From the IMG/VR virus record IMGVR_UViG_3300030012_001188, positions 1 to 22,268 of that record: a stretch of DNA of 22,268 nt; one strand, given 5' to 3'. The position numbers and the translations under genes are program-made. The notes below the pieces were generated by a model that saw nothing but the letters and a program-made list of their open reading frames with translations, made no database searches and was not told the DNA's origin. This DNA comes from a virus. Each line of letters opens with the position of its first letter. Position 1 is the stretch's first letter. Shown one piece after another: positions 2 through 21,461 of the stretch.

Positions 2-169
2 GATTTCTACATAGCCGACAAATTGGGAATAGAACCCAGAACTCCAGAATTTCGGGATATGTGCGACAAGTGGACAAGGTTTTTATGGTGCAATGATAAG
101 AACAATATTGAAAAAACCTTAAAAGATTTTATAAATACTTGGGAACTTTTAAAATATTACAGCGTATAA
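2..169 (+). CDS. C-terminal part of an unidentified protein (5' end outside window)
   Basis: An open frame enters from the left edge and runs 55 codons to TAA at 167-169. The visible part contains CDKWTRFLWC and a helical tail ending LLKYYSV. I do not recognise the family. Its stop codon lies inside the -10-like TATAAA of the first repeated promoter motif, and its last codons supply the GGAAC element, so the gene end and the next promoter are superimposed. The start and full length are not visible. Confidence 0.6.
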   Translation, partial: DFYIADKLGIEPRTPEFRDMCDKWTRFLWCNDKNNIEKTLKDFINTWELLKYYSV

Positions 170-170
170 A
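142..170 (+). promoter_or_regulatory. Putative phage promoter P1 (GGAAC-N16-CGTATAAA)
   Basis: GGAAC at 142-146 is followed after exactly 16 bases by CGTATAAA at 163-170. The same two elements with the same spacing recur at 979, 1294, 1666 and, more weakly, 3755. The layout resembles promoters of extracytoplasmic-function sigma factors (GGAAC at -35, CGTA at -10), but TATAAA would also suit a primary sigma factor. A start site near 175-178 would give a short leader carrying the Shine-Dalgarno GAGG (181-184) of the gene at 193. Confidence 0.6.
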
Positions 171-192
171 ACAAAAACGAGAGGAAACAAAA

Positions 193-543
193 ATGAAACT
201 ACACCACACTAAATATAAAAAGAACTACAAGAACTTTATCTTAGGTTCTTTAAATGATGTTGACGGGATGAACAGAGAGCAGAAAATAAAATATTTATCA
301 GGCAGGATTAATTCAGAATACGGACACCTTGTAAAAAGATTAGGGAGGCAGAAAGCTATTTCAGAATGGCTATCGGGTTTAGCAATCAATATTCCATTCT
401 ACAATCAGGATATATTACAGCTTGCTAAAGATATGGGTTCAGTGGACAATGAACTAACAGATAGACAAGAAGAGCGTATTATAGAAAACTACTGGGATTT
501 CATGGCGATGATGGTCTTGGAACTAGAGAAGGAGTTAATATGA
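193..543 (+). CDS. Conserved phage protein of unknown function (116 aa)
   Basis: ATG 193 is chosen because GAGG sits 8 bases upstream; the frame is open further left (in-frame ATG 139) but that would put the promoter motif inside the gene. The protein is mostly helical. Motifs such as NREQKIKYL, GRQKAISEWLSGLAI and ENYWDFMA match, from memory, a family widespread in phages and mobile elements with no assigned function. No catalytic motif or membrane segment is seen. It is the first gene after P1 and overlaps the next gene by ATGA, which suggests translational coupling. Confidence 0.8.
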   Translation: MKLHHTKYKKNYKNFILGSLNDVDGMNREQKIKYLSGRINSEYGHLVKRLGRQKAISEWLSGLAINIPFYNQDILQLAKDMGSVDNELTDRQEERIIENYWDFMAMMVLELEKELI

Positions 544-791
544 CTATTTACGAAATAAAAGAACGGACTAAAGAAACAAGCCCTTACTTTTTCGATAAGG
601 ACACTTTAAGATTTTTTGGACAACGTATGAGAGATTTTAAAGTAACAAAAATAGATAATGATACTTACCATATTAACGCCCCTATGTATGATTTTAATGG
701 AACATATATGGGTGATACTAATAGGTTTTTTTATCCATCAACAAACAAATTATCTTTATTAAAGGTAGATTTAAATAAAAGAAGTAAATAA
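540..791 (+). CDS. Conserved small phage protein (83 aa), unknown function
   Basis: ATG 540 overlaps the TGA of the preceding gene (ATGA), with GGAG at 531-534. The product has the pattern IKERTKETSPYFF, TLRFFGQRMRDF, then NAPMYDFNGTYMGDTNRFFYP. This aromatic, probably beta-rich arrangement belongs to a family I recall as common in phages and integrated elements with no known role. It is cotranscribed with the 193 gene, and its length looks complete. No metal-binding or catalytic residues stand out. Confidence 0.8.
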   Translation: MTIYEIKERTKETSPYFFDKDTLRFFGQRMRDFKVTKIDNDTYHINAPMYDFNGTYMGDTNRFFYPSTNKLSLLKVDLNKRSK

Positions 792-819
792 AAATAAACT
801 ACAGAAAGGGAACTAAACC

Positions 820-990
820 ATGAAAGAAAGAACTAGAAGAGCTTTAATAGATTTAATGATTATAACCGATGAACACAATTTATTAAGGGATGTAGACGAA
901 ACTCCAAAAGATTATAAAGATACAAAGAAACAAGCTTATTACGAACTGATGGCATTTATAAAAGAATATGGAGACAAGGGAACTAATTAA
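820..990 (+). CDS. Small helical protein (56 aa), unknown
   Basis: ATG 820 is preceded by AAAGGGAAC, an adequate ribosome-binding site. The 56 codons end in TAA at 988-990, and the product (MKERTRRALIDLMIITDEH... ending GDKGTN) is charged and helical. The gene fills what would otherwise be a gap between 791 and 1034 and follows the usual spacing of this operon. Its last codons contain the GGAAC of promoter P2. No family is recognised; it is judged real from the binding site, frame and fit between neighbours. Confidence 0.65.
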   Translation: MKERTRRALIDLMIITDEHNLLRDVDETPKDYKDTKKQAYYELMAFIKEYGDKGTN

Positions 991-1007
991 CAATTAATGC
1001 GTATAAA
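979..1007 (+). promoter_or_regulatory. Putative phage promoter P2 (GGAAC-N16-CGTATAAA)
   Basis: GGAAC at 979-983 and CGTATAAA at 1000-1007 are separated by 16 bases, identical to P1. GGAAC lies within the last codons of the 820 gene, and the -10-like part follows its stop. An expected start near 1012-1015 would leave about 20 bases of leader before ATG 1034. Confidence 0.6.
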
Positions 1008-1033
1008 AAAAAGAAACAAAGGAAAAATAGATT

Positions 1034-1312
1034 ATGACAAAACTTGAAAGACATAACACGATACGATTTGCTTTAGAAGTGCTTAAAATTTGTGCAGATA
1101 GGGAGATAGAATCTATATTTCAAGATATAGAGAAGGTGCGAGAATCAGAACACAACACGAAAACGAAGTATGATGAGATAGATAGGCTATTACAAGATAT
1201 GCACGAATGCAGAACTAGAAAGCAACACGCTAGAGAGCTTCAAGAAAATGAATTTGTGATACTGAGAAAAAATTCTAAGAAGTTAAAAAGTTTGGAACAA
1301 ATAGATAATTGA
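1034..1312 (+). CDS. Coiled-coil protein (92 aa), unknown
   Basis: ATG 1034 has AAAGGAA upstream at a rather long spacing. The product is strongly charged and helical through most of its length, with patterns such as REIESIFQDIEKV and YDEIDRLLQDMHE that suggest an elongated coiled coil, probably a multimer. No enzyme motif is visible and I do not recognise the family. It appears to be the only gene between promoters P2 and P3, so it may be expressed as a single-gene unit. Confidence 0.7.
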   Translation: MTKLERHNTIRFALEVLKICADREIESIFQDIEKVRESEHNTKTKYDEIDRLLQDMHECRTRKQHARELQENEFVILRKNSKKLKSLEQIDN

Positions 1313-1322
1313 TGCGTATAAA
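1294..1322 (+). promoter_or_regulatory. Putative phage promoter P3 (GGAAC-N16-CGTATAAA)
   Basis: GGAAC at 1294-1298 and CGTATAAA at 1315-1322 have the same 16-base spacing. GGAAC is part of the last codons of the 1034 gene. The region after the -10 element (acaaaaacaaaggaaag) supplies the ribosome-binding site of ATG 1344. Confidence 0.6.
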
Positions 1323-1343
1323 ACAAAAACAAAGGAAAGAAAG

Positions 1344-1673
1344 ATGAACGACACAACAAACAAAGACTACAAGCAGTTAGTAATCTGGAGAGGAACTATA
1401 GTTGGAGAAGAGAACATAGAGGACTTTGAAAAGTTCTTTCACGATGAAGGCTTTAGTGTGAAATATGCAACAGAGTTTGAAACACTAGCAGGCAATGGAG
1501 GAGAAGGTGGACGCAAGGATGTACTCTTTTATGTAAACGAAAAGGACATTCCGAAGTTTCAGATGTACAGATTAAGGCATGAAGGGATGAGTTGGTGGGA
1601 GGATGCGATTGACAACGAGAAGGAGATATTTCCCGAGAGAATATTAAATAAATATGAATATTCTTGGAACTAA
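1344..1673 (+). CDS. Conserved phage protein (109 aa), unknown function
   Basis: ATG 1344 has AAAGGAAAG upstream. The protein shows LVIWRGTIVGEENIEDFEKFF near the N-terminus, a Gly-rich turn (GNGGEGGRKD), then VLFYVNEKDIPKF and MSWWEDA. From memory, this order (WxGT, then FYV..DI..F, then WWED) occurs in a small uncharacterised family on phages and plasmids, probably an alpha/beta fold. No catalytic residues are recognised. It lies between P3 and P4, so its expression is likely driven mainly by P3. Confidence 0.75.
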   Translation: MNDTTNKDYKQLVIWRGTIVGEENIEDFEKFFHDEGFSVKYATEFETLAGNGGEGGRKDVLFYVNEKDIPKFQMYRLRHEGMSWWEDAIDNEKEIFPERILNKYEYSWN

Positions 1674-1694
1674 TATAAAACTTAAGCGTATAAT
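1666..1694 (+). promoter_or_regulatory. Putative phage promoter P4 (GGAAC-N16-CGTATAAT)
   Basis: GGAAC at 1666-1670 and CGTATAAT at 1687-1694 have the same spacing as P1-P3, and here the -10 hexamer is a perfect TATAAT. GGAAC forms the last two codons (Trp-Asn) of the 1344 gene. It probably drives the run of genes from 1716 to 3658. Confidence 0.65.
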
Positions 1695-1715
1695 AAATAA
1701 AGAGAGGAAACAAAT

Positions 1716-1943
1716 ATGGCGATGTATACACCACAACAAGAGTACGGATGCGACGGAACGGGATGCAACGAGTCAATTAAGATTGACATGGAGATAAGAT
1801 ATAGGAACTACGGAGATGATGATGGCTTCTATTGTTGGAAAGAAACAACCAAGACCTTAATCAACGATTGGGGTTGGACAGAGGACGAGCAAGACGATGA
1901 GATTCACTACTGCGATGCTTGTTCAGAAAGCGAGGTAGCATGA
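1716..1943 (+). CDS. Small Cys-rich, probably zinc-binding protein (75 aa)
   Basis: ATG 1716 follows GAGAGGAAACAAAT; a second ATG two codons on is possible. Cysteines at 12, 17, 40, 66 and 69 (CDGTGC ... HYCDAC) suggest a small zinc ribbon, with acidic stretches (DDDG, DEQDDE) between the halves. Such proteins in phage early regions may bind nucleic acid or host proteins, but the sequence does not say which. The last codons overlap the next gene. Confidence 0.7.
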   Translation: MAMYTPQQEYGCDGTGCNESIKIDMEIRYRNYGDDDGFYCWKETTKTLINDWGWTEDEQDDEIHYCDACSESEVA

Positions 1944-2275
1944 TGAATATAATACCAAAAGAAATTGAATTACAAAATTATGCAGAGGAATTTTTATTTC
2001 AACATTGCTTAAGAGAGGTAATTAATTTAGATAAAACTTTTCATACTGAATGGGATTTACCCTATAAATACAAAGGCAAAAAAAGCTCAGAAAAATATTA
2101 TGGCAAAGATAGATATAAGGTTTATTATGCTTACTTTACGTATAATATGCTTGCAGATGAAAGTTCTCCTGGAGATTTTTTCGATGAGGTAGATTGGAAT
2201 CCTTTATATGCTTTTGTTAAAACGTTTATAGAACGTCAAGAAAGTGAGGATATATGCCAGATATACATGAGATAA
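1940..2275 (+). CDS. Unidentified protein (111 aa)
   Basis: Tandem ATGs at 1940 and 1943 overlap the TGA (1941-1943) of the zinc-ribbon gene; GCGAGG at 1930-1935 is a good ribosome-binding site. The frame is open to a TTG at 1919, but that start has no such site. The product is rich in aromatic and acidic residues (WDLPYKY, DEVDWNPLYAF) and predicted helical, with no known motif. The binding-site context gaaagcgaggt is repeated before the next gene at 2298, which suggests related or duplicated translation starts. Confidence 0.65.
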   Translation: MMNIIPKEIELQNYAEEFLFQHCLREVINLDKTFHTEWDLPYKYKGKKSSEKYYGKDRYKVYYAYFTYNMLADESSPGDFFDEVDWNPLYAFVKTFIERQESEDICQIYMR

Positions 2276-2297
2276 CACTAGAAAGCGAGGTGAACTA

Positions 2298-2678
2298 ATG
2301 GGCAGATACTACAATGGAGATATAGAGGGTAAATGGTGGTTCGGCGTACAATCCTCAGATACTCCACAAAAGTTCGGAGGTTATGAAACACATATAGATT
2401 ACACAATCTGTGATGATGATACATTCAAGAACAGAATGGAGTGTATAGAGAATGACCTAGGAGATAGACTACCGATTCTAGAAAAGTTCTTTAAGGAAGA
2501 GTCTTACTATAACAATGAGAAGTTACACAAATATATGTCTAAGCATATCGAGGACTACAAATTGGAGTCAGTAAGTCAAGACGTTGAGGACTACGCAGAC
2601 TACTGCTTTGGTAAACAAGTTCAACGGCACTTCAAGGAGAGTGGCGAGGATTATTGCAATGTTAATTCGGAGTTATAA
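2298..2678 (+). CDS. Conserved phage protein with MGRYYNGDIEGK N-terminus (126 aa)
   Basis: ATG 2298 has GCGAGGTG upstream. The N-terminus MGRYYNGDIEGKWWFGVQSSD is, from memory, highly characteristic of an uncharacterised family found repeatedly in aquatic phages and some giant viruses. The remainder is acidic and helical, with scattered Cys and Tyr (YADYCFG). No enzymatic motif is evident. It is cotranscribed downstream of P4, and its length looks complete. Confidence 0.75.
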   Translation: MGRYYNGDIEGKWWFGVQSSDTPQKFGGYETHIDYTICDDDTFKNRMECIENDLGDRLPILEKFFKEESYYNNEKLHKYMSKHIEDYKLESVSQDVEDYADYCFGKQVQRHFKESGEDYCNVNSEL

Positions 2679-2680
2679 AG

Positions 2681-2836
2681 ATGAGAAAGTATTACCAGAC
2701 GTTACGTGAGGCGAAGAAAGCATTGAAACAAAATCCTTATGGTTATGATTTAAGGATATGGGACTTGGGTAAACATAGAAAGAAAAGAAGATTCTTTGTG
2801 GGCACTAAGCTCGAATGGCTTAACTTTGCAAGATGA
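2681..2836 (+). CDS. Small basic protein (51 aa)
   Basis: ATG 2681 lies two bases after the preceding stop, and 51 codons end in TGA at 2834-2836. The product begins MRKYYQTLREAKKALKQNP, is strongly basic (GKHRKKRRFF) and ends WLNFAR. A small nucleic-acid-binding role is possible but not shown. The ATGA overlap with the next micro-gene and the tight packing support it as real. Confidence 0.6.
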   Translation: MRKYYQTLREAKKALKQNPYGYDLRIWDLGKHRKKRRFFVGTKLEWLNFAR

Positions 2837-2919
2837 TAAGATTTAGAAGGTCATATTATTGTGTTGGACATTTTGTCATGCCACTATTTATATTATGGTA
2901 CATGATACCGGCACATTAG
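2833..2919 (+). CDS. Tiny membrane peptide candidate (28 aa)
   Basis: ATG 2833 overlaps the TGA of the 2681 gene, and 28 codons reach TAG 2917-2919. The N-terminus is basic (MIRFRRS), followed by about 17 mostly hydrophobic residues (VGHFVMPLFILWYMIP), a typical single-pass membrane peptide with the positive end inside. Such peptides are common in phage early operons, but this one could be a chance frame. It fills the space before the next ribosome-binding site (AGGAAA). Confidence 0.4.
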   Translation: MIRFRRSYYCVGHFVMPLFILWYMIPAH

Positions 2920-2928
2920 GAAATATAA

Positions 2929-3414
2929 ATGCTACGTGAAAAGATACATCAGCTACGGGGCGAGGGATATAGCTACAATGCCATTTCTAAGCTCTTGAGA
3001 TGCTCTAAATCAACGATTAATTATCATTTGGTACTTGGGGCTAAAGAAAAGATTTTAGCTCGAAATAAGCGATATAAGTGGAAAAAGAAAGTTGATGAAT
3101 ACAATCTTGGTTTGCGTGAAAGATACGAATGGAAGTACGATTATCTATTAGACAGGCAGTGCGTAGTATGTGGCGAGAGTAATCCACTGGCTTTGCAGTT
3201 CGACCACAAAAGCAAATATATCAAGACGGATAACATGGCAAATCTTTTTCGGAACAAAGTAACGATTAAAGAGTTAGAGAAAGAGGCAAAGAAATGCAGG
3301 GTGTTATGTGCGAATTGCCACCAAATAAAAACAGCGAAGGAGACTAACAGAATGTTTTATCAGATATGTATGGAAAGAAAAATAGAGGACTTTATAAATG
3401 AATGCGGAAGATAA
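2929..3414 (+). CDS. Free-standing HNH endonuclease with N-terminal helix-turn-helix
   Basis: Residues 1-35 form a helix-turn-helix of the resolvase/Hin type (GYSYNAISKLLRCSKSTINYHL). Residues 78-131 carry an HNH/zinc core: C78xxC81, then FDH (H93 the first catalytic His), then LCANCH (C127, C130, H131). This is a site-specific DNA nicking or cutting enzyme of the homing type, or a phage endonuclease acting on host or rival DNA; the HTH probably gives target specificity. ATG 2929 has AGGAAA upstream. The gene runs 17 bases into the next gene and has no obvious intron context, so it looks free-standing among small genes. Confidence 0.85.
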   Translation: MLREKIHQLRGEGYSYNAISKLLRCSKSTINYHLVLGAKEKILARNKRYKWKKKVDEYNLGLRERYEWKYDYLLDRQCVVCGESNPLALQFDHKSKYIKTDNMANLFRNKVTIKELEKEAKKCRVLCANCHQIKTAKETNRMFYQICMERKIEDFINECGR

Positions 3415-3658
3415 GAAAACTTTTATTGCAGAGAACTACCCAGATTGTATGGTAGCAAACGGATTTGGAGATGCTATCTTAGGAATCGTAGAGAGGCACG
3501 GACACGAAGCAGTAGTTCTGTATGACAAGAACAAATGTATTGAGATACTAATGGAGAAGCATGAAATGTCAGAGGAAGATGCGTATGACCACTTCTACTA
3601 TAATGTAGCCGGTTCCTACGTTGGCAAGTACACTCCATGTTTCGCCGAGATTCTGTAA
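3398..3658 (+). CDS. Conserved phage protein (86 aa), unknown function
   Basis: ATG 3398 lies inside the end of the HNH gene; AGAGGA upstream is a plausible binding site. The sequence (NGFGDAILGIVERHGHEAVVLYDKNKCIEIL ... EEDAYDHFYYNVAGSYVGKYTPCF) belongs to a family I recall as very common in phages and mobile elements: an alpha/beta protein with YD..KCIE and F.NV.G.YVG motifs and no established role. Its stop is followed directly by an inverted-repeat region, so it is probably the last gene of the P4 unit. Confidence 0.8.
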   Translation: MNAEDKKTFIAENYPDCMVANGFGDAILGIVERHGHEAVVLYDKNKCIEILMEKHEMSEEDAYDHFYYNVAGSYVGKYTPCFAEIL

Positions 3659-3663
3659 TATAA

Positions 3664-3743
3664 TTAGGGTATGGACACAACTAAAGTAGTATTGATTAAT
3701 TGAAGTTAATTTCACAAATAACAATAATCAGTTTATACCCTAA
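3664..3743 (+). repeat. Long-loop inverted repeat after the 3398 gene
   Basis: TTAGGGTAT at 3664-3672 and ATACCCTAA at 3735-3743 are perfect 9-base complements closing a 62-base AT-rich loop. Inside are weaker repeats: TGATTA/TAATCA and ATTAA/TTAAT. It starts six bases after the stop codon of the 3398 gene and ends 11 bases before promoter P5. It could be a structured 3' end, a protein-binding site or an AT-rich opening site. There is no T-run after it on the + strand, so it is not a standard terminator. The rest of 3659-3828 holds P5 and a 45-base leader. Confidence 0.45.
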
Positions 3744-3754
3744 AAAAATATTTG

Positions 3755-3783
3755 GGAACTTTTTGAAACCTTGTACGTTTAAG
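3755..3783 (+). promoter_or_regulatory. Putative phage promoter P5 (GGAAC-N16-CGTTTAAG)
   Basis: GGAAC at 3755-3759 and CGTTTAAG at 3776-3783 keep the exact 16-base spacing of P1-P4, although the -10 part is degenerate (TTTAAG instead of TATAAA). It is in a true intergenic stretch, which shows the motif is not just a by-product of coding sequence. It would drive the gene at 3829 with a leader of roughly 40 bases. Confidence 0.5.
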
Positions 3784-3828: not shown

Positions 3829-4206
3829 ATGAACATTAAAAACAAACCACTTAAAGTTATACTAGACCAACATAATCACGATGACTTTCCAGATGAATTA
3901 CTAATGAATATATTGGATAAGTTTGGATATAGGACAGATTTATTTGGTGGAATATCCAGAACTAAAGTTAGTAGTGATTGTCCACCAAGAGTCGCTGATA
4001 TGATTATACATACCATACGTCAATTATGGTGGAGGATGAGCGAGGAAGAGATGTGCGAATGCAAGGAAGAGCAAGATGAAAAGCTTTGGGCTAGGAGGTC
4101 GGACTCTAACGGAGACTTTATACCTTCAGAGGATACTCAAGAGTATAAAGATTATTGGGATAAAGCACGTAGCAAAAGTCAATTATTGGAACTTCTTAAC
4201 AAGTAA
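3829..4206 (+). CDS. Unidentified acidic protein (125 aa)
   Basis: ATG 3829 follows AAAAGGAAATAAG, a good binding site. The protein has LDQHNHDDFPDELLMNIL near the N-terminus, a basic helix (ADMIIHTIRQLWWRM), then EEEMCECKEEQDEKLW and a charged C-terminal helix. The two Cys in CEC alone do not make a metal site. I do not recognise it. It is the first gene after P5; its end contains the GGAAC of a weaker promoter-like site and precedes the structured region at 4223. Confidence 0.7.
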   Translation: MNIKNKPLKVILDQHNHDDFPDELLMNILDKFGYRTDLFGGISRTKVSSDCPPRVADMIIHTIRQLWWRMSEEEMCECKEEQDEKLWARRSDSNGDFIPSEDTQEYKDYWDKARSKSQLLELLNK

Positions 4207-4217
4207 ATAGTTATAAG
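4188..4217 (+). promoter_or_regulatory. Possible sixth promoter of the same family, one base longer
   Basis: TTGGAAC (GGAAC at 4188-4192) is followed by TATAAG at 4212-4217, one base further away than in P1-P5 and without the CG. If used, transcription would begin around 4223-4225, which is where the first long stem of the structured region (GGGTATCA) begins. The position is suggestive, but the match is weaker than the others. Confidence 0.35.
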
Positions 4218-4222
4218 AGTAT

Positions 4223-4404
4223 GGGTATCATTATTGAAAGTAAAAGTAGGACAGAAATTGTCAGGGTGTTAGAAACCTATCTTGATACCCTTTTAACGAG
4301 AGCCTCTGTATTCAGATGTGTGTTGGGCAGTCTGGACCCTTCAGAGAAAACTGAGGTCTTGCCTGAAGGTGCACTAAGGCAAGAGACCAAACAACGGAGG
4401 CTCT
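4223..4404 (+). ncRNA. Putative structured RNA (two domains, possible pseudoknot)
   Basis: This 217-base gap between genes is full of complementary segments. Domain 1: GGGTATCA 4223-4230 pairs with TGATACCC 4283-4290 and encloses GACA/TGTC. Domain 2: AGAGCCTC 4299-4306 pairs with GAGGCTCT 4397-4404 and encloses a hairpin, GGTCTTGCCT 4355-4364 with AGGCAAGAGACC 4377-4388 (two-base bulge). CCTTCAG 4338-4344 can pair either with CTGA at 4351-4354 or, as a pseudoknot, with CTGAAGG 4363-4369. These alternatives suggest a switch-like or stable RNA. A 68-codon frame (4221-4427) runs through it but has no binding site and no family. It could also be the leader of the 4424 gene. Confidence 0.5.
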
Positions 4405-4423
4405 TAAATTTAAGGACAAAAGC

Positions 4424-4720
4424 ATGAACAAGAACAGCGTTAGATACTTAGAAAGACTAATGAAAGCAGAGATGGATAAACACAAAGTGGCTTTAAAAGA
4501 TTTTAGATTTAGACAGCGTGGCATTGAAAAGATTGTAAGTGAAGTAATACCACAAGATGCAGACAGATTAGTGAAGATAGGAGACAGGGCAAAGTGGTTG
4601 ATGAACAATGTGCCAGATGATTACAGGTACGGAGAGTTGATAGAAATTAATAACGCAATCGCTAGTAACTTGCATGAACATTTGCAAAGAGTAGCAGAAA
4701 GGTATATAGGTGAGTTATGA
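4424..4720 (+). CDS. Helical protein (98 aa), unknown
   Basis: ATG 4424 has AAGGA upstream, 20 bases after the last stem of the structured region. The product is basic and helical (SVRYLERLMKAEMDKHKVALKDF, then RQRGIEKIVSEVIP and a C-terminal amphipathic helix). No motif or family is recognised. It ends in an ATGA overlap with the zinc-ribbon gene, so the two are probably translated together. The structured RNA just upstream may control it. Confidence 0.65.
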   Translation: MNKNSVRYLERLMKAEMDKHKVALKDFRFRQRGIEKIVSEVIPQDADRLVKIGDRAKWLMNNVPDDYRYGELIEINNAIASNLHEHLQRVAERYIGEL

Positions 4721-4911: not shown

Positions 4912-5029
4912 TGCACGTTTGTATTGCCAAAGGTTTTTTTCGGGAAGTCAGTTCATCGCTTCCTCTTTATTTCCCTTTGGCAAGCACTGCGATAAAGCGG
5001 GGGAGGTATTTTAATCACGCACCTCCCCC
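4907..5029 (+). ncRNA. Putative structured RNA with two strong stem-loops
   Basis: CGTAGTGC 4907-4914 pairs with GCACTGCG 4984-4991 (one G-U). After a 9-base bulge, TTGCCAAAGG 4924-4933 pairs perfectly with CCTTTGGCAA 4974-4983; inside is GGAAG/CTTCC (4943-4947, 4959-4963). Seven bases later GGGGGAGGT 4999-5007 pairs perfectly with ACCTCCCCC 5021-5029. Nothing codes here, and the second stem is far more GC-rich than the surroundings. It may be a free small RNA, a processed 3' end or a leader element of the 5068 gene. No T-run follows, so it is not a standard intrinsic terminator. I match it to no known RNA family. Confidence 0.55.
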
Positions 5030-5067
5030 CTCTCTCCTTTAAGATTTATAAACAAGAAAGGGATAAT

Positions 5068-5478
5068 ATGTTAGTAAAGGATTTTTTTAAGTGGGCTAGG
5101 AACGAATCAAAGGTAGAGCTTGACCTGATGGAAAAGAAGGGAATCGAGTACACTGTATCAGACGATGATAAACTTGCCAACTTCAAGTCAATCGGTGAAA
5201 GACTGAAATGTAAACCGGAGTTTGTAGCAATGGTGTATTTACTAAAGCACATGGATAGTGTAAGGAACTACGTATTACAGGGTACGGAAGCATCTAACGA
5301 ACCGATAGAAGGTAGGCTCAGGGATATACGTAATTATTGTTTACTGCTAGGTGCGTTAATAAAGGAACGGAAAGAAGAAGGGAAAGGCTTTGACAAGGAG
5401 TCACGTGACTTCTTTAAGCTAACAGATAATTATATTAGCGACCTACAGAAAAAAACAAAAAAGAAGGGAACAAAATAA
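5068..5478 (+). CDS. DUF1599-like (nucleotide-modification-associated) protein, 136 aa
   Basis: ATG 5068 has AAAGGGA upstream. The central and C-terminal parts (DDKLANFKSIGERL, MVYLLKHMDSV, then EGRLRDIRNYCLLLGALI) match the order of helices I associate with DUF1599/Nmad-like proteins of phages, an all-helical family thought to be linked to modified nucleotides or nucleotide pyrophosphatases. The acidic and Asn residues in RLRDIRNY could bind metal or substrate. No partner enzyme for base modification is visible in this window. The C-terminus is a Lys-rich tail. The family assignment is from memory of patterns and is moderately sure; function is inference. Confidence 0.5.
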   Translation: MLVKDFFKWARNESKVELDLMEKKGIEYTVSDDDKLANFKSIGERLKCKPEFVAMVYLLKHMDSVRNYVLQGTEASNEPIEGRLRDIRNYCLLLGALIKERKEEGKGFDKESRDFFKLTDNYISDLQKKTKKKGTK

Positions 5479-5479
5479 G

Positions 5480-5587
5480 ATGGGCATAGTTAAAGACTTA
5501 TGTTTACTATTTGTGTATGAATGTAAACGTAACAAAGAATTTATTTTAGGAATGATAATAGGAATCATTATCGGTAAGATAATATAG
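5480..5587 (+). CDS. Tiny membrane protein (35 aa)
   Basis: ATG 5480 lies one base after the stop of the 5068 gene, and 35 codons end at TAG 5585-5587. The product has an amphipathic start (MGIVKDLCLLFVYECKRNKE) and a clear C-terminal membrane segment, FILGMIIGIIIGKII, with glycine spacing typical of helix packing. The AAGGG upstream is slightly distant. It may alter the host membrane or anchor a complex; no family is recognised. Confidence 0.5.
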   Translation: MGIVKDLCLLFVYECKRNKEFILGMIIGIIIGKII

Positions 5588-5831: not shown

Positions 5832-6113
5832 ATGGCAAGAAACGGTGTAAATTCCGGAAGAATCAGCAATTATTTAGGAAAGATTATGTTGTTAAATAAA
5901 ACTGCAATTAGAAAAATGTTTCACGATGAGGGCATACAAGTGAATGTACTTGCACTCAATATTGTAGAACGTCTTGTACGATACATAGTAGATTCTATGA
6001 TAATCGGAGCAAAGTTTAAGAAAGTAAAAAGGGTTAAGCCGAGTAATATACAGAAGATATCTGATGAAGAGATAAAAGCTATGCTTATACACATGGATGA
6101 TAGACCTTTTTAA
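5832..6113 (+). CDS. Small basic protein with histone-fold-like helix pattern (93 aa)
   Basis: ATG 5832 follows the preceding stop by two bases; a TTG at 5826 could also start it. Neither has a clear binding site, so coupling is likely. The layout is a short helix (about 21-33, LNKTAIRKMFHDEG), a loop (IQVN), a long helix (39-64, ERLVRYIVDSMIIGAKF), a second loop with KRVKPS, and a third helix starting NIQKI. This short-long-short order with a basic residue in the second loop is that of archaeal-type histones, although the long helix seems about one turn shorter. If right, it would wrap or compact phage DNA. It may instead be an unrelated helical DNA-binding protein. Confidence 0.4.
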   Translation: MARNGVNSGRISNYLGKIMLLNKTAIRKMFHDEGIQVNVLALNIVERLVRYIVDSMIIGAKFKKVKRVKPSNIQKISDEEIKAMLIHMDDRPF

Positions 6114-6840
6114 AATATACGATGACTACATCATGGACCTCAAGGGCGAGAACTATGACGCTAGATACGAGGGTAAGGACGAATGGTTTCACGCATCTGG
6201 TGCAGGCTTGTGTATGCGTAAACATTACTATGCACAGATAGAAAAGCTACCGACCGGAGACAAAGACTCTAACACGATGCGACTCTTCAGACTTGGTGAC
6301 TTGGTTCACGGAGATATGCAAGAGGCATTAGAAAGGTATGCAAAGAAGAATGGGTACGAGGTTCACATTGAGACAGAGATTCTGATTCCACGATTGAATG
6401 TACGCAGCTTCGTAGATGCTATGATTCTAAAGGATGGTGCATTGTACGATATTAAAACGTGTAACGATTTCAAGTGGCAATCCATCTTCGGCAGATACGG
6501 AAGTAAAGAGGCACCGCAAAATTATGCAATTCAGTTGGGAACTTATGGGCTTTATTATCGTGAAAACAATATAAAGATAAATAAAATGGCACTACTCTTT
6601 TACAACAAGAACAATTCACGTGTCAAGGAGTTGAAGGTACCAAGAAAGTATATTGATATTGCAGAGAGGTATTGGTTAAAGGTGCAAGAATTATTTAAGG
6701 ACGGCTTACCACCAATAGAGAAAGGGTTCTCTCCAGTAGAGGATTGGGAGTGTAACTCTAAATATTGCTCGTTTTACGAGCCTTGTGGTGGTGGCATAAA
6801 AGGAATACAAGAAAGGGAAAACAAATGGACCAAGAGGTAG
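6097..6840 (+). CDS. Cas4/RecB-type PD-(D/E)XK exonuclease with Fe-S cysteines
   Basis: The 247-residue protein has C39 in GLCMRKHYY, a conserved GDLVH motif (H71), D107 in FVDAM, DIK at 118-120 and QLGTY at 146-150, the ordered motifs of RecB-family nucleases. C219, C224 and C230 near the C-terminus together with C39 would hold a 4Fe-4S cluster, as in Cas4 and AddB. It should degrade DNA ends to leave single strands for recombination. ATG 6097 overlaps the previous gene by 17 bases; ATG 6133 is a weaker alternative. No cas genes or CRISPR repeats are nearby, so it belongs to phage recombination. SSB-like and other nuclease genes follow in the same operon. Confidence 0.85.
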   Translation: MIDLFKIYDDYIMDLKGENYDARYEGKDEWFHASGAGLCMRKHYYAQIEKLPTGDKDSNTMRLFRLGDLVHGDMQEALERYAKKNGYEVHIETEILIPRLNVRSFVDAMILKDGALYDIKTCNDFKWQSIFGRYGSKEAPQNYAIQLGTYGLYYRENNIKINKMALLFYNKNNSRVKELKVPRKYIDIAERYWLKVQELFKDGLPPIEKGFSPVEDWECNSKYCSFYEPCGGGIKGIQERENKWTKR

Positions 6841-7226
6841 ATTGGGATAAGGTGAATAGAGGCAAGGTGCGATATGGGTTTGCACTCGAATTGTACAAAC
6901 AGGGTAAGATGTTAAAACCATCTGAGATAGGAAAGATAGAAGCGTTTGTAGGATATGTAATGAACGGCGTGGACGAGGATAGTCCGCCAGATAGACCGGT
7001 TGTTAAGAAGCCATACATGGACAAAGAGCAATGCAAGAGAGTCTTAGAGACAGAACAGGAGGGGACCAAGAAGTTTGTAGAGGCGATGGTTCATTTAGAT
7101 ATGGATGGTCTCAAGCAAGAGGATTCAGATAAAGTCTTAAAAGCGTTAGCCGATGGCAAGATTACAATGGATAATCTTCAGGCATCTTTAGATAAGATGC
7201 AACAGATAAGAAAATCCTATAAGTAA
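6825..7226 (+). CDS. Unidentified protein between nuclease and SSB-like genes (133 aa)
   Basis: ATG 6825 is chosen because GAAAGGGAAA precedes it; the frame is open 20 codons further left, but that part overlaps the nuclease's Cys motif. The product is helical and charged (RGKVRYGFALELYKQGKMLKPSE, IEAFVGYVMNGVDEDSPP) with a C-terminal coiled segment. I do not recognise a domain. Its place between the Fe-S nuclease and the SSB-like gene suggests a recombination or replication accessory role. Confidence 0.65.
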   Translation: MDQEVDWDKVNRGKVRYGFALELYKQGKMLKPSEIGKIEAFVGYVMNGVDEDSPPDRPVVKKPYMDKEQCKRVLETEQEGTKKFVEAMVHLDMDGLKQEDSDKVLKALADGKITMDNLQASLDKMQQIRKSYK

Positions 7227-7682
7227 ATGTCCGGTAACTCCTACTACATACCAACTGGGGATAGTGCGAGCTCTCGCATTCCCGCCGGTGAATACAAAGC
7301 TATGATATGCGACATAGAAGTTATGAAGGATATGCGTTGCGGGGGATTCATAGCTGATGTATTCAAACCAATATATCGTATAATACAATCAGATTACGAA
7401 GGAACAGAGATAAAAGATAGCGGTCTCTTTAGATATAAAGAAGCACAAGGCTATCAATTCAAGCCAAACCGAAACTGGGGCTTTGCAAAGTTCTGCCAGA
7501 CCTTAGGTATACAGAAAGAGACTGGAGGTAAGGTATCGCTTCCATACCTGCAGTTAAGTATGCTTAATAACATAGAAGTAATAATAGCAATAAGCTATAA
7601 GAACTTTATAAATAAAGAAGGCACAAACGTAAGCTATCCAGTAGCGATACTTAAAAAGAAAATAGAGGAGGTTCCGTTTTGA
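7227..7682 (+). CDS. DUF669-like single-strand DNA-binding protein candidate (151 aa)
   Basis: ATG 7227 directly abuts the preceding stop. The sequence has IPAGEYKAMICDIEV near residue 18, then beta strands ending in YEGTEIKDSGLF, then WGFAKFCQTLGI and a strand-rich end, the order of the DUF669 phage family, often treated as OB-fold SSB-like. The last residues, IEEVPF, match the acidic-hydrophobic tip that bacterial SSBs use to recruit partners. It would coat single strands made by the upstream nuclease. The overlap with the next gene (TTGA) suggests coupling. Confidence 0.65.
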   Translation: MSGNSYYIPTGDSASSRIPAGEYKAMICDIEVMKDMRCGGFIADVFKPIYRIIQSDYEGTEIKDSGLFRYKEAQGYQFKPNRNWGFAKFCQTLGIQKETGGKVSLPYLQLSMLNNIEVIIAISYKNFINKEGTNVSYPVAILKKKIEEVPF

Positions 7683-7876
7683 TACACTGGAACAAACTAA
7701 AGATAAAGCCAACAGATGACATGACAGATGCGGATGTCAGGGATTTTGTGGAATGGGTAACGAAAAAAGCAGAACGATTAGGTTTCAACGTAGAGTTAGA
7801 TTTGTACAAAGAGTCTGGCTCTGGTTCTTCAGAAGCAATAAGTCCCAACCCACTGGCTACTAATGAAAGCGATTAA
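7679..7876 (+). CDS. Small protein with TTG start (65 aa)
   Basis: The TTG at 7679 overlaps the TGA of the SSB-like gene and has a strong AGAGGAGG site seven bases upstream, so the rare start is credible. The product begins with a short strand (IHWNKLKIKP), has an acidic helix (DDMTDADVRDFVEWVTKKAERLGF) and ends in a Ser/Gly-rich tail that overlaps the next gene by 14 bases. No family is recognised. Confidence 0.6.
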   Translation: MIHWNKLKIKPTDDMTDADVRDFVEWVTKKAERLGFNVELDLYKESGSGSSEAISPNPLATNESD

Positions 7877-8447
7877 AGTCATCTTAAATCAAGGACAGCT
7901 AAAAGATATTACCAAACAGGTAAGAGACGAGGGAGGTGCAGACTACCGGTTTGATGTAAACCTTTTGGAGGGTAAGCTGTCCGAAAATAAATGGGCAGAA
8001 ATGTTAGAGACTGTAGAGTTCAAAAAAGATTACAAAGCTTGGGACACGGGTAATATAGCTGTAGAGTACAGCAATAATGGAAAGCCAAGTGGTATCTCTG
8101 TTACAGAAGCTAAGTATATTGCATACGTACTTGTAGATGAAAAGCAAAATGAGAACGTAGCTATCTTCGTAAAGACAGAGGTTTTTAAAAAGATGTGTCG
8201 TAAATACTTGAGACACCCACAAAGAGATATTAAAGGTGGAGATAACTTTAGCTCTAGTCTAATCTTACTACCAGTTGAAGAACTACTAAATCCTAAATTT
8301 ATATTTGAGTCAGAGGATGATAGAAAAGAATGGGAGTATAAATGCAGAGATTGTGGTTACGCATACATTTCACAATCTAAAACACTTTTTAAAATTTGCC
8401 CAGATTGTATAAAAGTAGATAAAAAAATTAAGTTGGAGATACTTTGA
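7863..8447 (+). CDS. PD-(D/E)XK-type nuclease with C-terminal zinc ribbon (194 aa)
   Basis: Residues 30-90 (GKLSENKWAEML, then KKDYKAWDTGNIAVEYSNNG, then KPSGISVTEAKYIAYVL) follow the E, D, E order of a phage PD-(D/E)XK nuclease family: E46 on the first helix, D56, and E68 in AVEY. A canonical ExK is not obvious; K74 after the turn may substitute. Cysteines 161, 164, 179 and 182 (CRDCG, CPDC) add a zinc ribbon. A structure-specific or junction-cleaving role fits beside the recombination genes. The start overlaps the previous gene and has a weak binding site. Confidence 0.6.
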   Translation: MKAIKVILNQGQLKDITKQVRDEGGADYRFDVNLLEGKLSENKWAEMLETVEFKKDYKAWDTGNIAVEYSNNGKPSGISVTEAKYIAYVLVDEKQNENVAIFVKTEVFKKMCRKYLRHPQRDIKGGDNFSSSLILLPVEELLNPKFIFESEDDRKEWEYKCRDCGYAYISQSKTLFKICPDCIKVDKKIKLEIL

Positions 8448-8698
8448 AGAATAAACACAAGACCAATAATAAAGACAGAGACAAGCAGATTACACACTTG
8501 TTTGAAAGGGTGTATGGCTTAGGTCAAGAACTGCGGATGGTAAGGACCCTTTTAGAAAACTATATAATATGGAATGGCGATGTCGAAAAATTCACAAAAT
8601 ACTTACAAGAAGACCAAGAAAAAAGAGAATCAGAGACGGGGAAGAAGAAACCGTCAAAGAGGAGCAGAGCTACAAAGGCAAGCAGTAAATCTAGCTAA
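8444..8698 (+). CDS. Charged helical protein with TTG start (84 aa)
   Basis: The TTG at 8444 overlaps the previous TGA (TTGA) and has GGAG six bases upstream, the same arrangement as at 7679. The first 60 residues are helical (ITHLFERVYGLGQELRMVRTLLENYI). The last third is a Lys/Ser-rich tail (GKKKPSKRSRATKASS) encoded in a stretch that is also the start of the next gene in another frame, so the tail's composition is probably dictated by that overlap. No family is recognised. Confidence 0.6.
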   Translation: MKNKHKTNNKDRDKQITHLFERVYGLGQELRMVRTLLENYIIWNGDVEKFTKYLQEDQEKRESETGKKKPSKRSRATKASSKSS

Positions 8699-8936
8699 AG
8701 AATTTAATCTAGAGGCTTTCAATCGAGACAGAGGTGGAGCGCAACATGAGATGGGTGACATAGAGATTGAAGGTAACTACTACGGATGCAAGAGAAGAAA
8801 GTCTATTGCGACTTGGGTAAAACCAGAGAAAGAAGAAATGGGCGTGGTGATACGAGAGGATAGAGGCGCACCATTTATGGTGGTCCCACTAGAGCACTAC
8901 CTGTTCTTAGTGTCGCTTATTAAAGAAAGGATTTAG
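8574..8936 (+). CDS. Small nuclease-fold protein, resolvase-like, possibly altered active site (120 aa)
   Basis: The N-terminus is very basic (KKTKKKENQRRGRRNRQRG), followed by a helix (AELQRQAVNLAKEF), then RDRGGAQHEMGDIEIEGNYYGCKRRKS and a strand/helix end (GVVIREDRGAPFMVVPLEHYLFL). The order matches small Hjc/VRR-like PD-(D/E)XK proteins: the acidic DIEIE and then xCKRRK where the family normally has ExK. Here the E position reads Gly (GCK), so activity is uncertain. No other start codon lies downstream before the conserved core, so the first 125 bases truly overlap the 8444 gene in another frame. It could be an inactive DNA-binding relative. Confidence 0.55.
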   Translation: MAMSKNSQNTYKKTKKKENQRRGRRNRQRGAELQRQAVNLAKEFNLEAFNRDRGGAQHEMGDIEIEGNYYGCKRRKSIATWVKPEKEEMGVVIREDRGAPFMVVPLEHYLFLVSLIKERI

Positions 8937-9019
8937 CGGGAAAGATTAGCAAAAGAAAAAGTTGGTTGGCGCTAACTAAGACTTTGAACAATCTGTGGTG
9001 TGAAAAGTAGCCCGCTAAA
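8932..9019 (+). ncRNA. Putative three-way-junction RNA upstream of SSB-like gene
   Basis: TTTAGCGGG 8932-8940 pairs perfectly with CCCGCTAAA 9011-9019. Inside, TTAGC 8946-8950 pairs with GCTAA 8971-8975, and ACTTT 8981-8985 with AAAGT 9004-9008, which gives a three-way junction. The left arm includes the TAG of the preceding gene, and the right arm ends 12 bases before the AAAGGAG of the 9045 gene. The position suits a leader element controlling that gene, or a processed 3' structure. I recognise no riboswitch consensus. Confidence 0.45.
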
Positions 9020-9044
9020 AATTAACAAACGAAAGGAGCCAAGA

Positions 9045-9269
9045 ATGGCATTTGAACATAAACCAAATACTGCTACGGTATTTTTTAACGGAAAGAAAAG
9101 CGGTGACAACCAACCTGATTTTACAGGAAAGGGTAAGGTTGGAGATAGTTTGATGGAGTTCGCTATGTGGAGAAAGAAAACTCAGAAGGGTGATGAGTAT
9201 TTTTACATGAGTTTTAAGGAACCATCAGAGAAATTCGGCAATAAAAAGAGTAATGACGACCCTTTTTAG
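9045..9269 (+). CDS. Small SSB-like protein with acidic DDPF tip (74 aa)
   Basis: ATG 9045 has AAAGGAG six bases upstream; the frame runs 15 codons further left but that part lies in the structured leader. The product MAFEHKPNTATVFFNGKK is followed by FTGKGKVGDSLMEFAMWRKK and GDEYFYMSFKEP, a short beta barrel resembling DUF736-like or small OB-fold proteins. The end NKKSNDDPF resembles the SSB partner-binding tip. It would be the second single-strand-binding candidate in this operon; a regulator or replication accessory is an alternative. Confidence 0.6.
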   Translation: MAFEHKPNTATVFFNGKKSGDNQPDFTGKGKVGDSLMEFAMWRKKTQKGDEYFYMSFKEPSEKFGNKKSNDDPF

Positions 9270-9286
9270 AAAAAGCTTGAATAAAG

Positions 9287-9323
9287 GCTGTAACGGGGGT
9301 AATTTCGCATTATCCCCTACAGC
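9287..9323 (+). other. Strong hairpin downstream of the SSB-like gene
   Basis: GCTGTA 9287-9292 pairs with TACAGC 9318-9323, and after a two-base bulge GGGGGTAAT 9295-9303 pairs with ATTATCCCC 9309-9317 (one G-U) around a TTCGC loop. It starts 18 bases after the stop of the 9045 gene. No immediate T-run follows, so it is a weak intrinsic-terminator candidate or an RNA-stability or processing element. The remaining 50 bases to the next gene are very AT-rich, with no promoter I can support. Confidence 0.5.
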
Positions 9324-9381
9324 TATATATTGTATCAAAATATTATTTTTATCGTCATATAAGCTAAATTAGGGGGTGTTT

Positions 9382-9684
9382 TTGTCTACAAGTTTACAAA
9401 AAAATACAGAAAGTAAAACATTGTTCATAAAATGCCCTTTGATAGATTCTAAGTGCGCAATGTGCGGAGAATCTAATTGGAATCCTATGACAGACAGCTA
9501 TAATTCTACAAACTATTTACATTGTGGAATGATAACAGGTTATGAAACAAGAGTAGATTCACTAGAAAAGTGTTGGCTTGAAATGGAAAAGAAAGAGCAG
9601 GCTAAATTTAAAAAGCAAAAGAAGAATGAATACTACGCTTTAAATCCTAGCAAGATGCACAGGATGAAAGTCACTTATTATTAA
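9382..9684 (+). CDS. Cys-containing protein at the convergence point (100 aa)
   Basis: The TTG at 9382 is preferred because AGGGGG (9371-9376) lies five bases upstream; the GTG at 9376 overlaps that site. Cysteines 18, 25 and 28 (FIKCPL ... KCAMCGES), with later single Cys residues (YLHCG, KCWLEM), suggest a small metal site. The rest is charged and helical. No family is recognised. Its TAA shares bases with the stop of the 1217-residue gene on the other strand, so the two transcripts must overlap unless termination occurs inside a gene. Confidence 0.65.
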   Translation: MSTSLQKNTESKTLFIKCPLIDSKCAMCGESNWNPMTDSYNSTNYLHCGMITGYETRVDSLEKCWLEMEKKEQAKFKKQKKNEYYALNPSKMHRMKVTYY

Positions 9685-12600
9685 AAATCCATCAACGGGT
9701 CTTTAGTCTCTTCCTCAAGCCTGTTATACTTTCTCATTAAATATTTGTTAATTTCTTCAGGTCCAATATCTCCCATAGTCAACGGTCTTTCTGGGAAAGC
9801 ATTGTTCCACTCATTTATAACTCTCTTTGCAGAATCGTCTTGGTCTGCTAACATGAAATCAAATATTTTTTTCTTGGTTACTGACAAAAAACTTCTTCTC
9901 CTGTCGCTTCTTTGCTTAGGAGTCTCCAACCTTCTTGCCGCCCGACTGACTTGCGTTCCAAATATAGGTGCTAAGTATTTAGCTGAACGCCTTAATGTAA
10001 TAGAATTAGGACCAAGCTCTATCATGTCGTTTCCAATCCTTTGCATAGCAGAGTACATTTTAAATGAATCCTGTATTATTGCTGGTTTTGCTAAAAACTC
10101 TACAGACCTCCAAGGGCTCTCAGATGACACAATATCAGACACAATACCAAATGCGCCAACAGCACCTATTGCTTCACGGAAATCTTTTAGCGTGTACTCT
10201 CCTTGCCCATCAGCGTTTAGTCTGTAGTTGTCATCGTATATATCTTCTCCTGAAAGCGCATTAGAGTATGTGGCTTTTGACCAGTTTACAAACGCACCAC
10301 CAAATAAGCCTGCAGCTCCTAATCTTAAAAAGAAAGTTAGGTCCTTATCTTTTATAGCCTGATTGACCCATCTTGAAAGCATTTCTGCTTGTCTGTATCC
10401 AAACCTTTTAAATAATATAAACGGTTGAAACTTAGGGTTGTTAAAAAAATTAGGTTCTAAAAAAACATTCTTCTGTAATTGTGTACTTGAAGAAAATTCA
10501 TACATAGCTTTTGCAACATTCTTAGGTGTAATCTTTTGATTAAAATCTGTGATGCCTAACTCTCTTAGATTTCTAATAGCAAAGTCTCTTCTACGTGCCT
10601 GCCTCAATGTCTTTGGCTTTATTTGAGCAGATTTTTGCCACGTCTTAACTGCCTCTAAAGATGTATACGCAGATACTAACTTATTAATTCTATTAATCCT
10701 TTGGAACTGTGTTACGGCTGTTAATTTATCAGCCATTAACCCTAACTTAGATTGATTTTGTGGTTGAAATCCTGCTATCATTTCGTGTAACTCTAAAGTA
10801 CCTGCCCCTGAGTTCTTTTTAATTGCATCTCTATATTTTTTATTTGTTATTGCATAGTATGTACCCTTGAAAAAAGGACTGTATCCTAACTTCAGAGCGG
10901 TAGAAATAAAAGTTTGCGTAACGTTTGGAATGGTAGCAAATCCAAGACCTATTTTGGTAGCTACTTGAAAGTTAACCAAGTCGTTTAATATGTTCTTTGC
11001 TTTGAGATTATAATTATATTTTGGATTTAGCTCTATTAAACCTGTGTACGTATCAAAAGCCCTTTGCAAAATATCTGCTTGCTCTCCCAGTTTAAGAGCC
11101 TGCAAGCTTTTTATTTTATCAAACATAACCCTTCCGTCTTTACCTACGTTTTCAGCGTAAGCAACCCTCTTGGTAGCCTGTGCAATGTAATTCATTAACA
11201 CTAAACCTGCATCCTTTTCATATATCTGGTCACGAACTTCTTTTGGTAATTCTTTTTCTTTTCTCTTTCTTTCGAGGTTTTTATTTAGCACTACTCTTTC
11301 ACTAATCACGTTATTCCTAAGCCTTTCAAAAGCCTGCGAAAAACCAACATTAATACTTTGCCCTCTATTAGCCCTAGCTCTTTCTTGTATAATAGACTGA
11401 CGCATACTCTCTAATATTTTTACTGTCTCAGGCGAAAACCCTTCTCTCATAAAATCCCTAAGGTTCTGCTCAAATCCGGGTTTTCGTATTAAGTCAGATG
11501 ACAATGTGCGAGGGTCTAATGTTGCTATCTTGTCTATGTCGGTATAAAGGGCTTTCATTATCTTTGGCTTCATAACTCTTGGAAAATAATTTTGCACAAA
11601 AGGAGCTAGGTCTAACCCAGACTTTTCAGATATACCCCAAGTTTTATAAAGAACTTTTCTAATATTTTCTGTTCTCTTTACAGCTCCAGCATCTGTTGAT
11701 TCCAAGTCTCTCCCTAGCTGTTCTCTAATTTTTTTATTCCTACCTGCTTTTAAAAAACTTCCAGTCACCTGATTTAAGTTAAACTGTTTTCCATCAGGTG
11801 TCGTAAATGGAGCATTGTTAAGTTCTGTTGCAAGCCTAGAAAATAAAGTAGCATTTCTAGAGTTCATATTTTCAATAAGTCTACGCCCGGTGACAGCTAT
11901 AGGGTGAGTAAGTCTATACTTAGTCGGAATTATTTCTTTTTTAACCCCTAAGAAAGCCTCATAGATTGGAGTAGGTAAGACTTTTTGCACTAGAGATTTT
12001 GCTGAAACCTCTGGTACTTCTATTGCATCTTTCTTGTAACGCTTCAGTATATCATTAGTCGCTTTTCTTCTGCGCAAATCTTCTAGTAATCTGTATTTTC
12101 CAGCTCTACTAAGCTTTTGATAATTAGACCTAAAGCCACCTTTTTTCTCTATCAAATCAAAAGATTTATTGCTGTCCCTACCAAAGGCTGCCTTGTCTAT
12201 AGCTTGCTTGAAATCTAAATCAGAGAGGTTTAATTCTTTTTTTAAGACAAAACTTCTTTTTCTCATAGCAGTCGGAATATTTACACCGAACCTGTCAGTC
12301 TCTCTGGTGTAATTTTTAAAGAACTCTTTCTTTGGGATATTAAAAGTCTTGTTATTGCTAACATCTTCAACCTTAAACATTGGCTGTTTTCTTTCTTTAC
12401 CTGTCCAGTCTGTTAATATTCTCACTGTTTTTTGACCAGCGTTATCTTGCCAAGTTTCTTGCGCAACTCTATTCCTTGCAGACGTTTTTGCTTCTTGCTC
12501 TGCTGCTATTCTTAGTTGCTCTTCTGATTTTGCTCTATTAGTGATTCTGCTAGGAACTTCTATTGTTTTCTTAACGATAGCTCTTTTTAAAGTTAAACCA

Positions 12601-13334: not shown

Positions 13335-13338
13335 ATAT

Positions 13339-14745: not shown

Positions 14746-14759
14746 TGTAATCCTCTACT

Positions 14760-16511: not shown

Positions 16512-16512
16512 A

Positions 16513-16716
16513 TCAAGTACCTCTTATACTTTCAAATTCTATATAGAATAATTTACCAAATGCTTTTCTATAAATCCTTAATTTATTACCACCTGCAAGC
16601 ACTAGCCTTTCGTCCCCATCTGCCATCTCACTTATAGATGGTTGTTGTCTAGATGGCGCCACCTCAGTACGCTTGGTTTGCTCTAATCTTCTAAGTCTAG
16701 TATCGGTTAGGCTCAT
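16513..16716 (-). CDS. Small virion-module protein (67 aa), unknown
   Basis: ATG 16716 overlaps the TGA of the tail gene (ATGA). The N-terminal half is basic and polar (DTRLRRLEQTKRTEV). The C-terminal half is a beta hairpin pattern (GDERLVLAGGNKLRIYRKAFGKLFYIEFE) of the kind seen in small tail-associated proteins. No family name is known to me. Its position between the tail protein and the ejection genes suggests a structural or assembly role. Confidence 0.6.
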   Translation of the reverse strand: MSLTDTRLRRLEQTKRTEVAPSRQQPSISEMADGDERLVLAGGNKLRIYRKAFGKLFYIEFESIRGT

Positions 16717-19286: not shown

Positions 19287-19678
19287 TATTCCTTAATCTC
19301 AAAGTGTACGAGGTCATCAAAACGATTATCTTTAGTCTTTGTGTCTTGGTCCCAGTCTCCACCCCAGCGAATGTTTAATCCCATCTGTTGTGCAATACCT
19401 ATAACATATCCGCCAAAATAGTGAAACCTATCACGGTCAGACCAGTCAATAGGATAAGGAGCAACATCGACAGCAATGCTAGGTAATTTATTGTGCTTTC
19501 CATTTGGGTACTTAACTTTGCTGTTCCCTTTTCTGTATGCTTCGTTCTGTCTTTCCTCACCCCTATGACCTTCAATGATGGTGCAGTCGAATCCCTTAAC
19601 AACTTCTTTAAATAGTTCCTGTAATCGCTCATCGCAAGTCTCCAATCTACCTAAACTTCTTTTGCTGAACCTCGGCAT
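19286..19678 (-). CDS. Endolysin, M15-type L-Ala-D-Glu/D-Ala peptidase (130 aa)
   Basis: The protein is a single M15 zinc-peptidase domain of the usual endolysin length. H62 (GKHN), D71 (SIAVDVAPYP) and H125 (DLVHFE) are the expected zinc ligands, and D122 just before the last His is the likely catalytic acid; GHRGEERQNEAY near 37-48 is a family motif. It cuts peptide cross-links or stems of peptidoglycan at lysis. There is no signal peptide, so release depends on a holin; two small membrane proteins upstream are candidates. Both ends overlap neighbours as TAATG. Confidence 0.88.
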   Translation of the reverse strand: MPRFSKRSLGRLETCDERLQELFKEVVKGFDCTIIEGHRGEERQNEAYRKGNSKVKYPNGKHNKLPSIAVDVAPYPIDWSDRDRFHYFGGYVIGIAQQMGLNIRWGGDWDQDTKTKDNRFDDLVHFEIKE

Positions 19679-19905: not shown

Positions 19906-19906
19906 T

Positions 19907-20044: not shown

Positions 20045-20045
20045 T

Positions 20046-20716: not shown

Positions 20717-20725
20717 TTTATACTC

Positions 20726-20983: not shown

Positions 20984-20992
20984 AATTATTTT

Positions 20993-21460: not shown

Positions 21461-21461
21461 T

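Follow-up and report, generated by a model that had tools for sequence, protein, structure and literature searches.

The 22,268-base IMG/VR virus record IMGVR_UViG_3300030012_001188, which we call the window in its full length, carries a repeated two-part motif in front of its small early genes, with GGAAC placed 16 bases ahead of CGT[A/T]TAA. We found the same motif across the uncultured, widespread phage family to which the window belongs. These sites are most likely promoters of the extracytoplasmic function (ECF) type that are read by a host ECF sigma factor of EcfG-like specificity. The left half of the window holds the small early genes and nuclease genes on the + strand, and the right half holds virion and lysis genes on the - strand.

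Promoter-like sites in the window

The first-pass annotation, made from the letters of the window, had reported five GGAAC/-10 pairs with a constant 16-base spacer. All five are present without a mismatch to GGAAC-N16-CGT[A/T]TAA and all lie on the + strand. Dinucleotide shuffles gave an expected number of 0.01 exact sites, and none of 100 shuffles reached five. When two mismatches were allowed, nine sites were found in the window against 2.8 expected. It was also correct that the first four GGAAC elements fall inside the last codons of the upstream open reading frames (ORFs), which end at 169, 990, 1312 and 1673, and that every site stands just before a gene start. The starts that follow (193, 1034, 1344, 1716 and 3829) each have a purine-rich ribosome site. 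The five putative promoters and the genes behind them are:

142-169, + strand: ECF-type promoter GGAAC-N16-CGTATAA; the start of the early gene 193-543 (+ strand, 50% identity to a gene from Pelagibacter phage HTVC010P) is 23 nt past the -10
979-1006, + strand: ECF-type promoter GGAAC-N16-CGTATAA; precedes the small early gene 1034-1312 (+ strand, no known family)
1294-1321, + strand: ECF-type promoter GGAAC-N16-CGTATAA; precedes the small early gene 1344-1673 (+ strand, no known family)
1666-1693, + strand: ECF-type promoter GGAAC-N16-CGTATAA; precedes the small early gene 1716-1943 (+ strand, no known family)
3755-3782, + strand: ECF-type promoter GGAAC-N16-CGTTTAA; intergenic, precedes the small early gene 3829-4206 (+ strand, no known family)

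Further sites in the window were scored with a weight matrix trained on the relatives, with the window left out. The list of five proved incomplete, since it lacked two weaker sites at 5467 and 4188:

5467-5494, + strand: putative ECF-type site GGAAC-N16-AGTTAAA, 25 bits; in the final codons of 5068-5478
4188-4215, + strand: weaker putative ECF-type site GGAAC-N16-AGTTATA, 15 bits; in the final codons of 3829-4206

The site at 5467 is common to six close relatives. Orthologues of the site at 4188 score 28 bits in the relatives G001, G009 and G010 and 24 bits in G007. This site is predicted to transcribe a structured RNA candidate (4300-4403, described below) together with the gene 4424-4720. 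Another match at 3251 (14 bits) lies inside the HNH endonuclease gene and was taken as likely chance. The late genes have no ECF-type site of 13 bits or more on their strand of the window:

9681-22268, - strand: late (virion and lysis) genes

The motif across the phage family

Close relatives of the window were collected from IMG/VR via protein similarity. In 20 relatives chosen by protein and not by motif, we found 30 exact sites in 11 records, always on one strand per record, and the reversed-pattern control gave none in the same 20. The first-pass annotation had proposed such a search in related phages, with absence of the motif counting against the promoters; the motif is present there. 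The extended 28-base pattern GGAACTTTYTNAAACN6CGTWTAA matches 53 viral contigs and two of about 85,000 bacterial genomes. The two bacterial genomes show no excess of the motif over the reversed control, so these matches are probably chance and we rejected them as pointers to the host. Where the portal gene is visible in motif-bearing contigs it is on the strand opposite the motif, and the motif therefore marks the early strand. Near-complete genomes have 5-12 sites each. When grouped by flanking sequence, the sites form at least 46 sets, which shows that they are not repeats of a single site.

For the anatomy of the sites we analysed 50 contigs with a total of 1.19 Mb. The additional contigs had for the most part been selected for carrying one motif site, and contigs were oriented by the motif. 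On the early strand, GGAAC-Nx-CGT[A/T] occurs at 141 distinct sites with x=16 and at 40 with x=17, while the remaining spacers between 8 and 25 each have 10 sites or fewer. The late strand has three sites at spacer 16 and two at spacer 17. When we searched with CGTATAA at a spacer of 16, GGAAC dominated the -35 position on the early strand, and it did not figure among the top -35 sequences of the late strand. The converse search with GGAACTT gave [C/A]GT[A/T] as the -10. In a count that did not condition on the fourth base of the -10, this base was C at five of 307 sites and A or T at 296. At spacer 16 the -10 counts are CGTA 98, AGTT 52, AGTA 50 and CGTT 43, and at spacer 17 they are CGTT 22 and CGTA 18. 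Across the family, the form with GGAACTTTTTGAAAC, as at 3755, is the most widespread. From the originally described motif, the 16-base pair was retained, but TATAAA is not fixed, and the conserved core is GGAAC-N16/17-[C/A]GT[A/T].

Upstream of GGAAC lies an A-rich stretch. Downstream, 185 of 258 starts with a Shine-Dalgarno cluster fall 20-49 nt past the -10, where about 25 are expected. Most near-complete genomes also have an exact TTGACA with a TATA-like sequence on the early strand. It lies 20-270 nt (usually 220-270) from where the small terminase gene starts and about 360-480 nt ahead of the first ECF-type site, and is likely a sigma70-type entry promoter:

L040:12435-12470, early strand: TTGACA/TATA-like site; equivalents in G007, G009, G029, G038, G041, G046, G049, G055 and G062

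Search for a phage sigma factor or RNA polymerase

The first-pass annotation had offered, as one option, that the phage carries its own sigma factor. This found no support, as sigma region 2 (PF04542) had no match in 32 records, about 20 of them near-complete in size; the search recovered the controls in 11 of 14 genomes and would miss a highly diverged sigma. The matches to region 4 turned out to be the helix-turn-helix (HTH) of an HNH endonuclease. This endonuclease family is present in all 17 genomes compared, and its N-terminal part is swapped, with an HTH in the window (2929-3414, + strand) and a cysteine-rich, zinc-finger-like part in other branches. We rejected the HTH as a stand-in for sigma region 4, since many relatives keep the HNH protein without it. 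Among the early proteins, no sigma or polymerase-binding family came over the cut-off in Pfam, and no sigma was among the PHROGs families listed. Nucleases and small helical or zinc proteins are the products of the genes that every or almost every genome retains. For one of these, a helical core protein of 133 aa, a medium-confidence model (mean pLDDT 77) gave no sigma-like structural match, and none at E <= 0.001. In the window, the conserved early core contains no recognisable sigma factor:

6097-9684, + strand: conserved early core
6097-6840, + strand: Cas4/PDDEXK-like exonuclease
8574-8936, + strand: RusA-like nuclease
6765-7226, 7227-7682, 7863-8447 and 9376-9684, + strand: further conserved early core genes

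We also looked for a single-subunit RNA polymerase. The annotated early-strand ORFs are too small for one, as they reach about 350 aa, and the large ORFs of the family sit on the late strand. A T7-type polymerase was therefore rejected as the reader for want of a candidate ORF. A search with PF00940 had no positive control and was not relied on. Since there is neither a recognisable sigma nor a large RNA polymerase, a host sigma is the simplest reader of the sites.

Proposed mechanism and rival explanations

The two-part form and the spacer of 16-17 bases argue for a promoter of the sigma-factor type. The suggestion that these are ECF-type rather than phage-polymerase promoters agrees with this, with their position on one strand before gene starts, with their presence throughout the family and with the sizes of the early ORFs. 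In the mechanism that we propose, GGAAC would be the -35 element contacted by sigma region 4, and [C/A]GT[A/T]TAA would be the -10 element contacted by region 2. The host core polymerase would read the sites together with an ECF sigma of the host that resembles EcfG, which serves the general stress response in Alphaproteobacteria. Several such promoters per genome would produce short-leader transcripts of the small early genes in one direction. Where the early region begins on the left, a single TTGACA/TATA-type promoter could yield the first, sigma70-dependent transcript, and the activity of the ECF-type promoters may rise once infection or stress frees the sigma. It is possible, and we suggest it tentatively, that host EcfG, together with its partner switch PhyR/NepR, governs the early programme of an entire marine phage family. 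Infection would then follow the pace of the host stress response or feed on it, and structured leader RNAs made from some of the promoters would take part in the switch.

Several points weigh against a host sigma of this kind. Selection of contigs by one site inflates the counts, while the spacing, start distance and portal orientation are unaffected. CGTA is commoner than CGTT in the phage sites, which is a mismatch to the EcfG consensus. Cultured marine alphaproteobacterial phages were considered as sharers of the motif, and those tested, which were SAR11 phages and the SAR116 phage HMO-2011, do not have it. No relatives of the portal were found in 85,000 bacterial genomes, where a prophage could have led to the host. 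Finally, phage sigma factors can diverge strongly, as the sigma of phage 7-11 is 15% identical to its phiEco32 relative and reads the bipartite promoter GTAAtg-N16-aCTA (PMC8948821).

The last point belongs to the strongest rival, in which the ECF-type promoters are read by a highly diverged sigma or sigma-like factor encoded by the phage, as in phiEco32 and 7-11. Many sites per genome are typical of phage-specific promoters, and the two matching bacterial genomes show no enrichment of the motif. Against it stand the searches for region 2 and for sigma families described above, the make-up of the core genes, the loss of the HTH from the HNH protein in relatives, the modelled helical core protein and the close fit of a published host consensus. 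We consider this rival unlikely, though a serious one.

The other option offered by the first-pass annotation was a host envelope-stress sigma. A host sigma agrees with the lack of a recognisable phage sigma, but the envelope-stress class is doubtful. A -10 of the RpoE type requires GTC (GTCTAA/TCTGA), and the phage sites have that C in five of 307 cases. Promoters for RpoE (ECF02) would share the -35 box GGAACTT (PMC8103513) and a compatible spacing with the phage sites, and even so we find this reading improbable.

It is more improbable still that the pair is a repeated site for protein binding or recombination which moves along with small genes, as could be read from similar promoter and ribosome-site cassettes before different small genes in different relatives. 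Strand exclusivity, the narrow start distance, exact 16-17 spacing around a variable spacer sequence and the A-rich upstream stretch are features expected of promoters. Regular sigma70 promoters of the host that have an unusual -35 would agree with the TATAA within the -10, but they are hardly credible, because separate TTGACA/TATA-type sites are found at one conserved position and sigma70 would tolerate variation in GGAAC and have no need for CGT.

Phages are known to rely on the sigma70 of the host, on sigma factors that they encode or on RNA polymerases of their own. The open-access literature that we searched, which was limited, contained no report that we could find of a phage family with early genes under ECF-type promoters and without a phage sigma. 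If a host EcfG-like sigma does read the sites, the infection of abundant marine bacteria would hinge on the stress state of the host. The promoter would then also serve as a marker by which uncultured viruses could be matched to hosts that have an EcfG-like sigma.

Phage family and host

Near-complete relatives of the window are 35-46 kb long. Since the start of G010 is repeated near its end, this suggests a genome unit of about 40.6 kb. The family has a P22-like portal, an SU10-like capsid and TerL. Among 50,697 phage records we found no near match to the family, and TerL, portal and capsid have distant relatives there with less than 30% identity.

The hosts are probably marine, alphaproteobacterial bacteria. 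We take the phages to be marine from their protein relatives and from some of the IMG sample numbers, for which a paper search gave no habitats. Relatives of the 7863-8447 protein were found in 43 phage records, of which 36 are named phages of Pelagibacter (33), Puniceispirillum (two) or Roseobacter (one) and four are uncultured, so that nearly all are from phages of marine Alphaproteobacteria. Apart from its match in HTVC010P, the 193-543 protein has weaker relatives mostly in coliphages. The 86-aa protein of 3398-3658 (+ strand) has relatives in cultured phages almost only among large Bacillus phages, with up to 51% identity, which is odd for an otherwise marine, proteobacterial-looking phage. 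The coliphage and Bacillus-phage relatives of early proteins point to gene exchange, and this blurs the host clue. SAR11 bacteria are not known to have ECF sigmas, and if they lack them, SAR11 would be an unlikely host.

Structured RNAs and gene cassettes

Downstream of the site at 4188 there is a candidate structured RNA:

4300-4403, + strand: structured non-coding RNA candidate, 104 nt

Its predicted fold has a closing stem (GAGCCUCU/GGAGGCUC), three hairpins and a conserved GTGCAC. The 116-nt stretch 4295-4410 has a fold z of -4.65, and six relatives show compensatory changes at nine of 34 pairs. Another leader RNA of about 170 nt lies directly 3' of the first ECF-type promoter in one branch of the family:

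L201:2936-3109 (- strand), L135:9578-9749 (- strand), L216:19163-19335 (+ strand), L209:2701-2875 (- strand) and L204:583-761 (- strand): leader RNA of about 170 nt

It carries GTAAGA, CGGTGAAAATAG and a 3' hairpin. Compensatory changes occur at 18 of 37 pairs, a number that was reached by none of 500 shuffles and by no slid control, and the single-sequence stability is ordinary (z 0.39). From these features it could be an antitermination or translation-control leader. Rfam gave no match for the window or for this leader, for the latter even at E 1.

We observed a second strongly folding stretch at 4915-5060 (+ strand, z -4.81) with the hairpins GCCAAAGG..CCTTTGGC and GGGGGAGGT..ACCTCCCCC. It is kept at 96-99% in close relatives and is probably non-coding. 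Cassettes of a promoter and a ribosome site precede different small genes in the window (142-1940) and in the relatives L006, L008, L009, L012 and L014, as if the promoter sequences served as recombination joints for swapping early genes.

Comparison with known promoter systems

Among published consensus sequences, the one for EcfG/SigT (ECF15), the general stress sigma of Alphaproteobacteria, comes closest, and EcfG-like specificity most likely fits the phage sites best, judging from the motif. The consensus for Caulobacter SigT and Sphingopyxis EcfG is GGAAC-N16-CGTT, with the one-base -10 variants TGTT, CATT and GGTT (PMC4287350, PMC7083833). The -35 GGAAC and the 16-base spacer are common to both systems, and CGTT occurs as the -10 of some phage sites. 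Most phage sites have CGTA, and they show a strongly kept TATAA tail and common 17-base spacers, at 5-12 sites per phage genome.

RpoE (ECF02) shares the -35 and a similar spacing with the phage sites, which lack the C of its GTC. Promoters of Bacillus sigmaW have a CGTA-type -10 at 16-base spacing. This -10 resembles that of the phage sites, but the sigmaW -35 is of the TGAAAC type (ATTGAAACCTTT, PMC8103513) and not GGAAC.

The podoviruses phiEco32 and 7-11 redirect the host core polymerase, and the 7-11 promoters are bipartite with a spacer of 16, as here (PMC8948821). However, their sigma is phage-encoded and serves middle and late genes, while in the present family we found no sigma and the sites serve the early strand. 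HTVC010P and the Autographiviridae pelagiphages are marine and share single early proteins with the window (193-543 at 50% identity and relatives of 7863-8447). In contrast, no ECF-type sites were found in them, and several encode a T7-like RNA polymerase.

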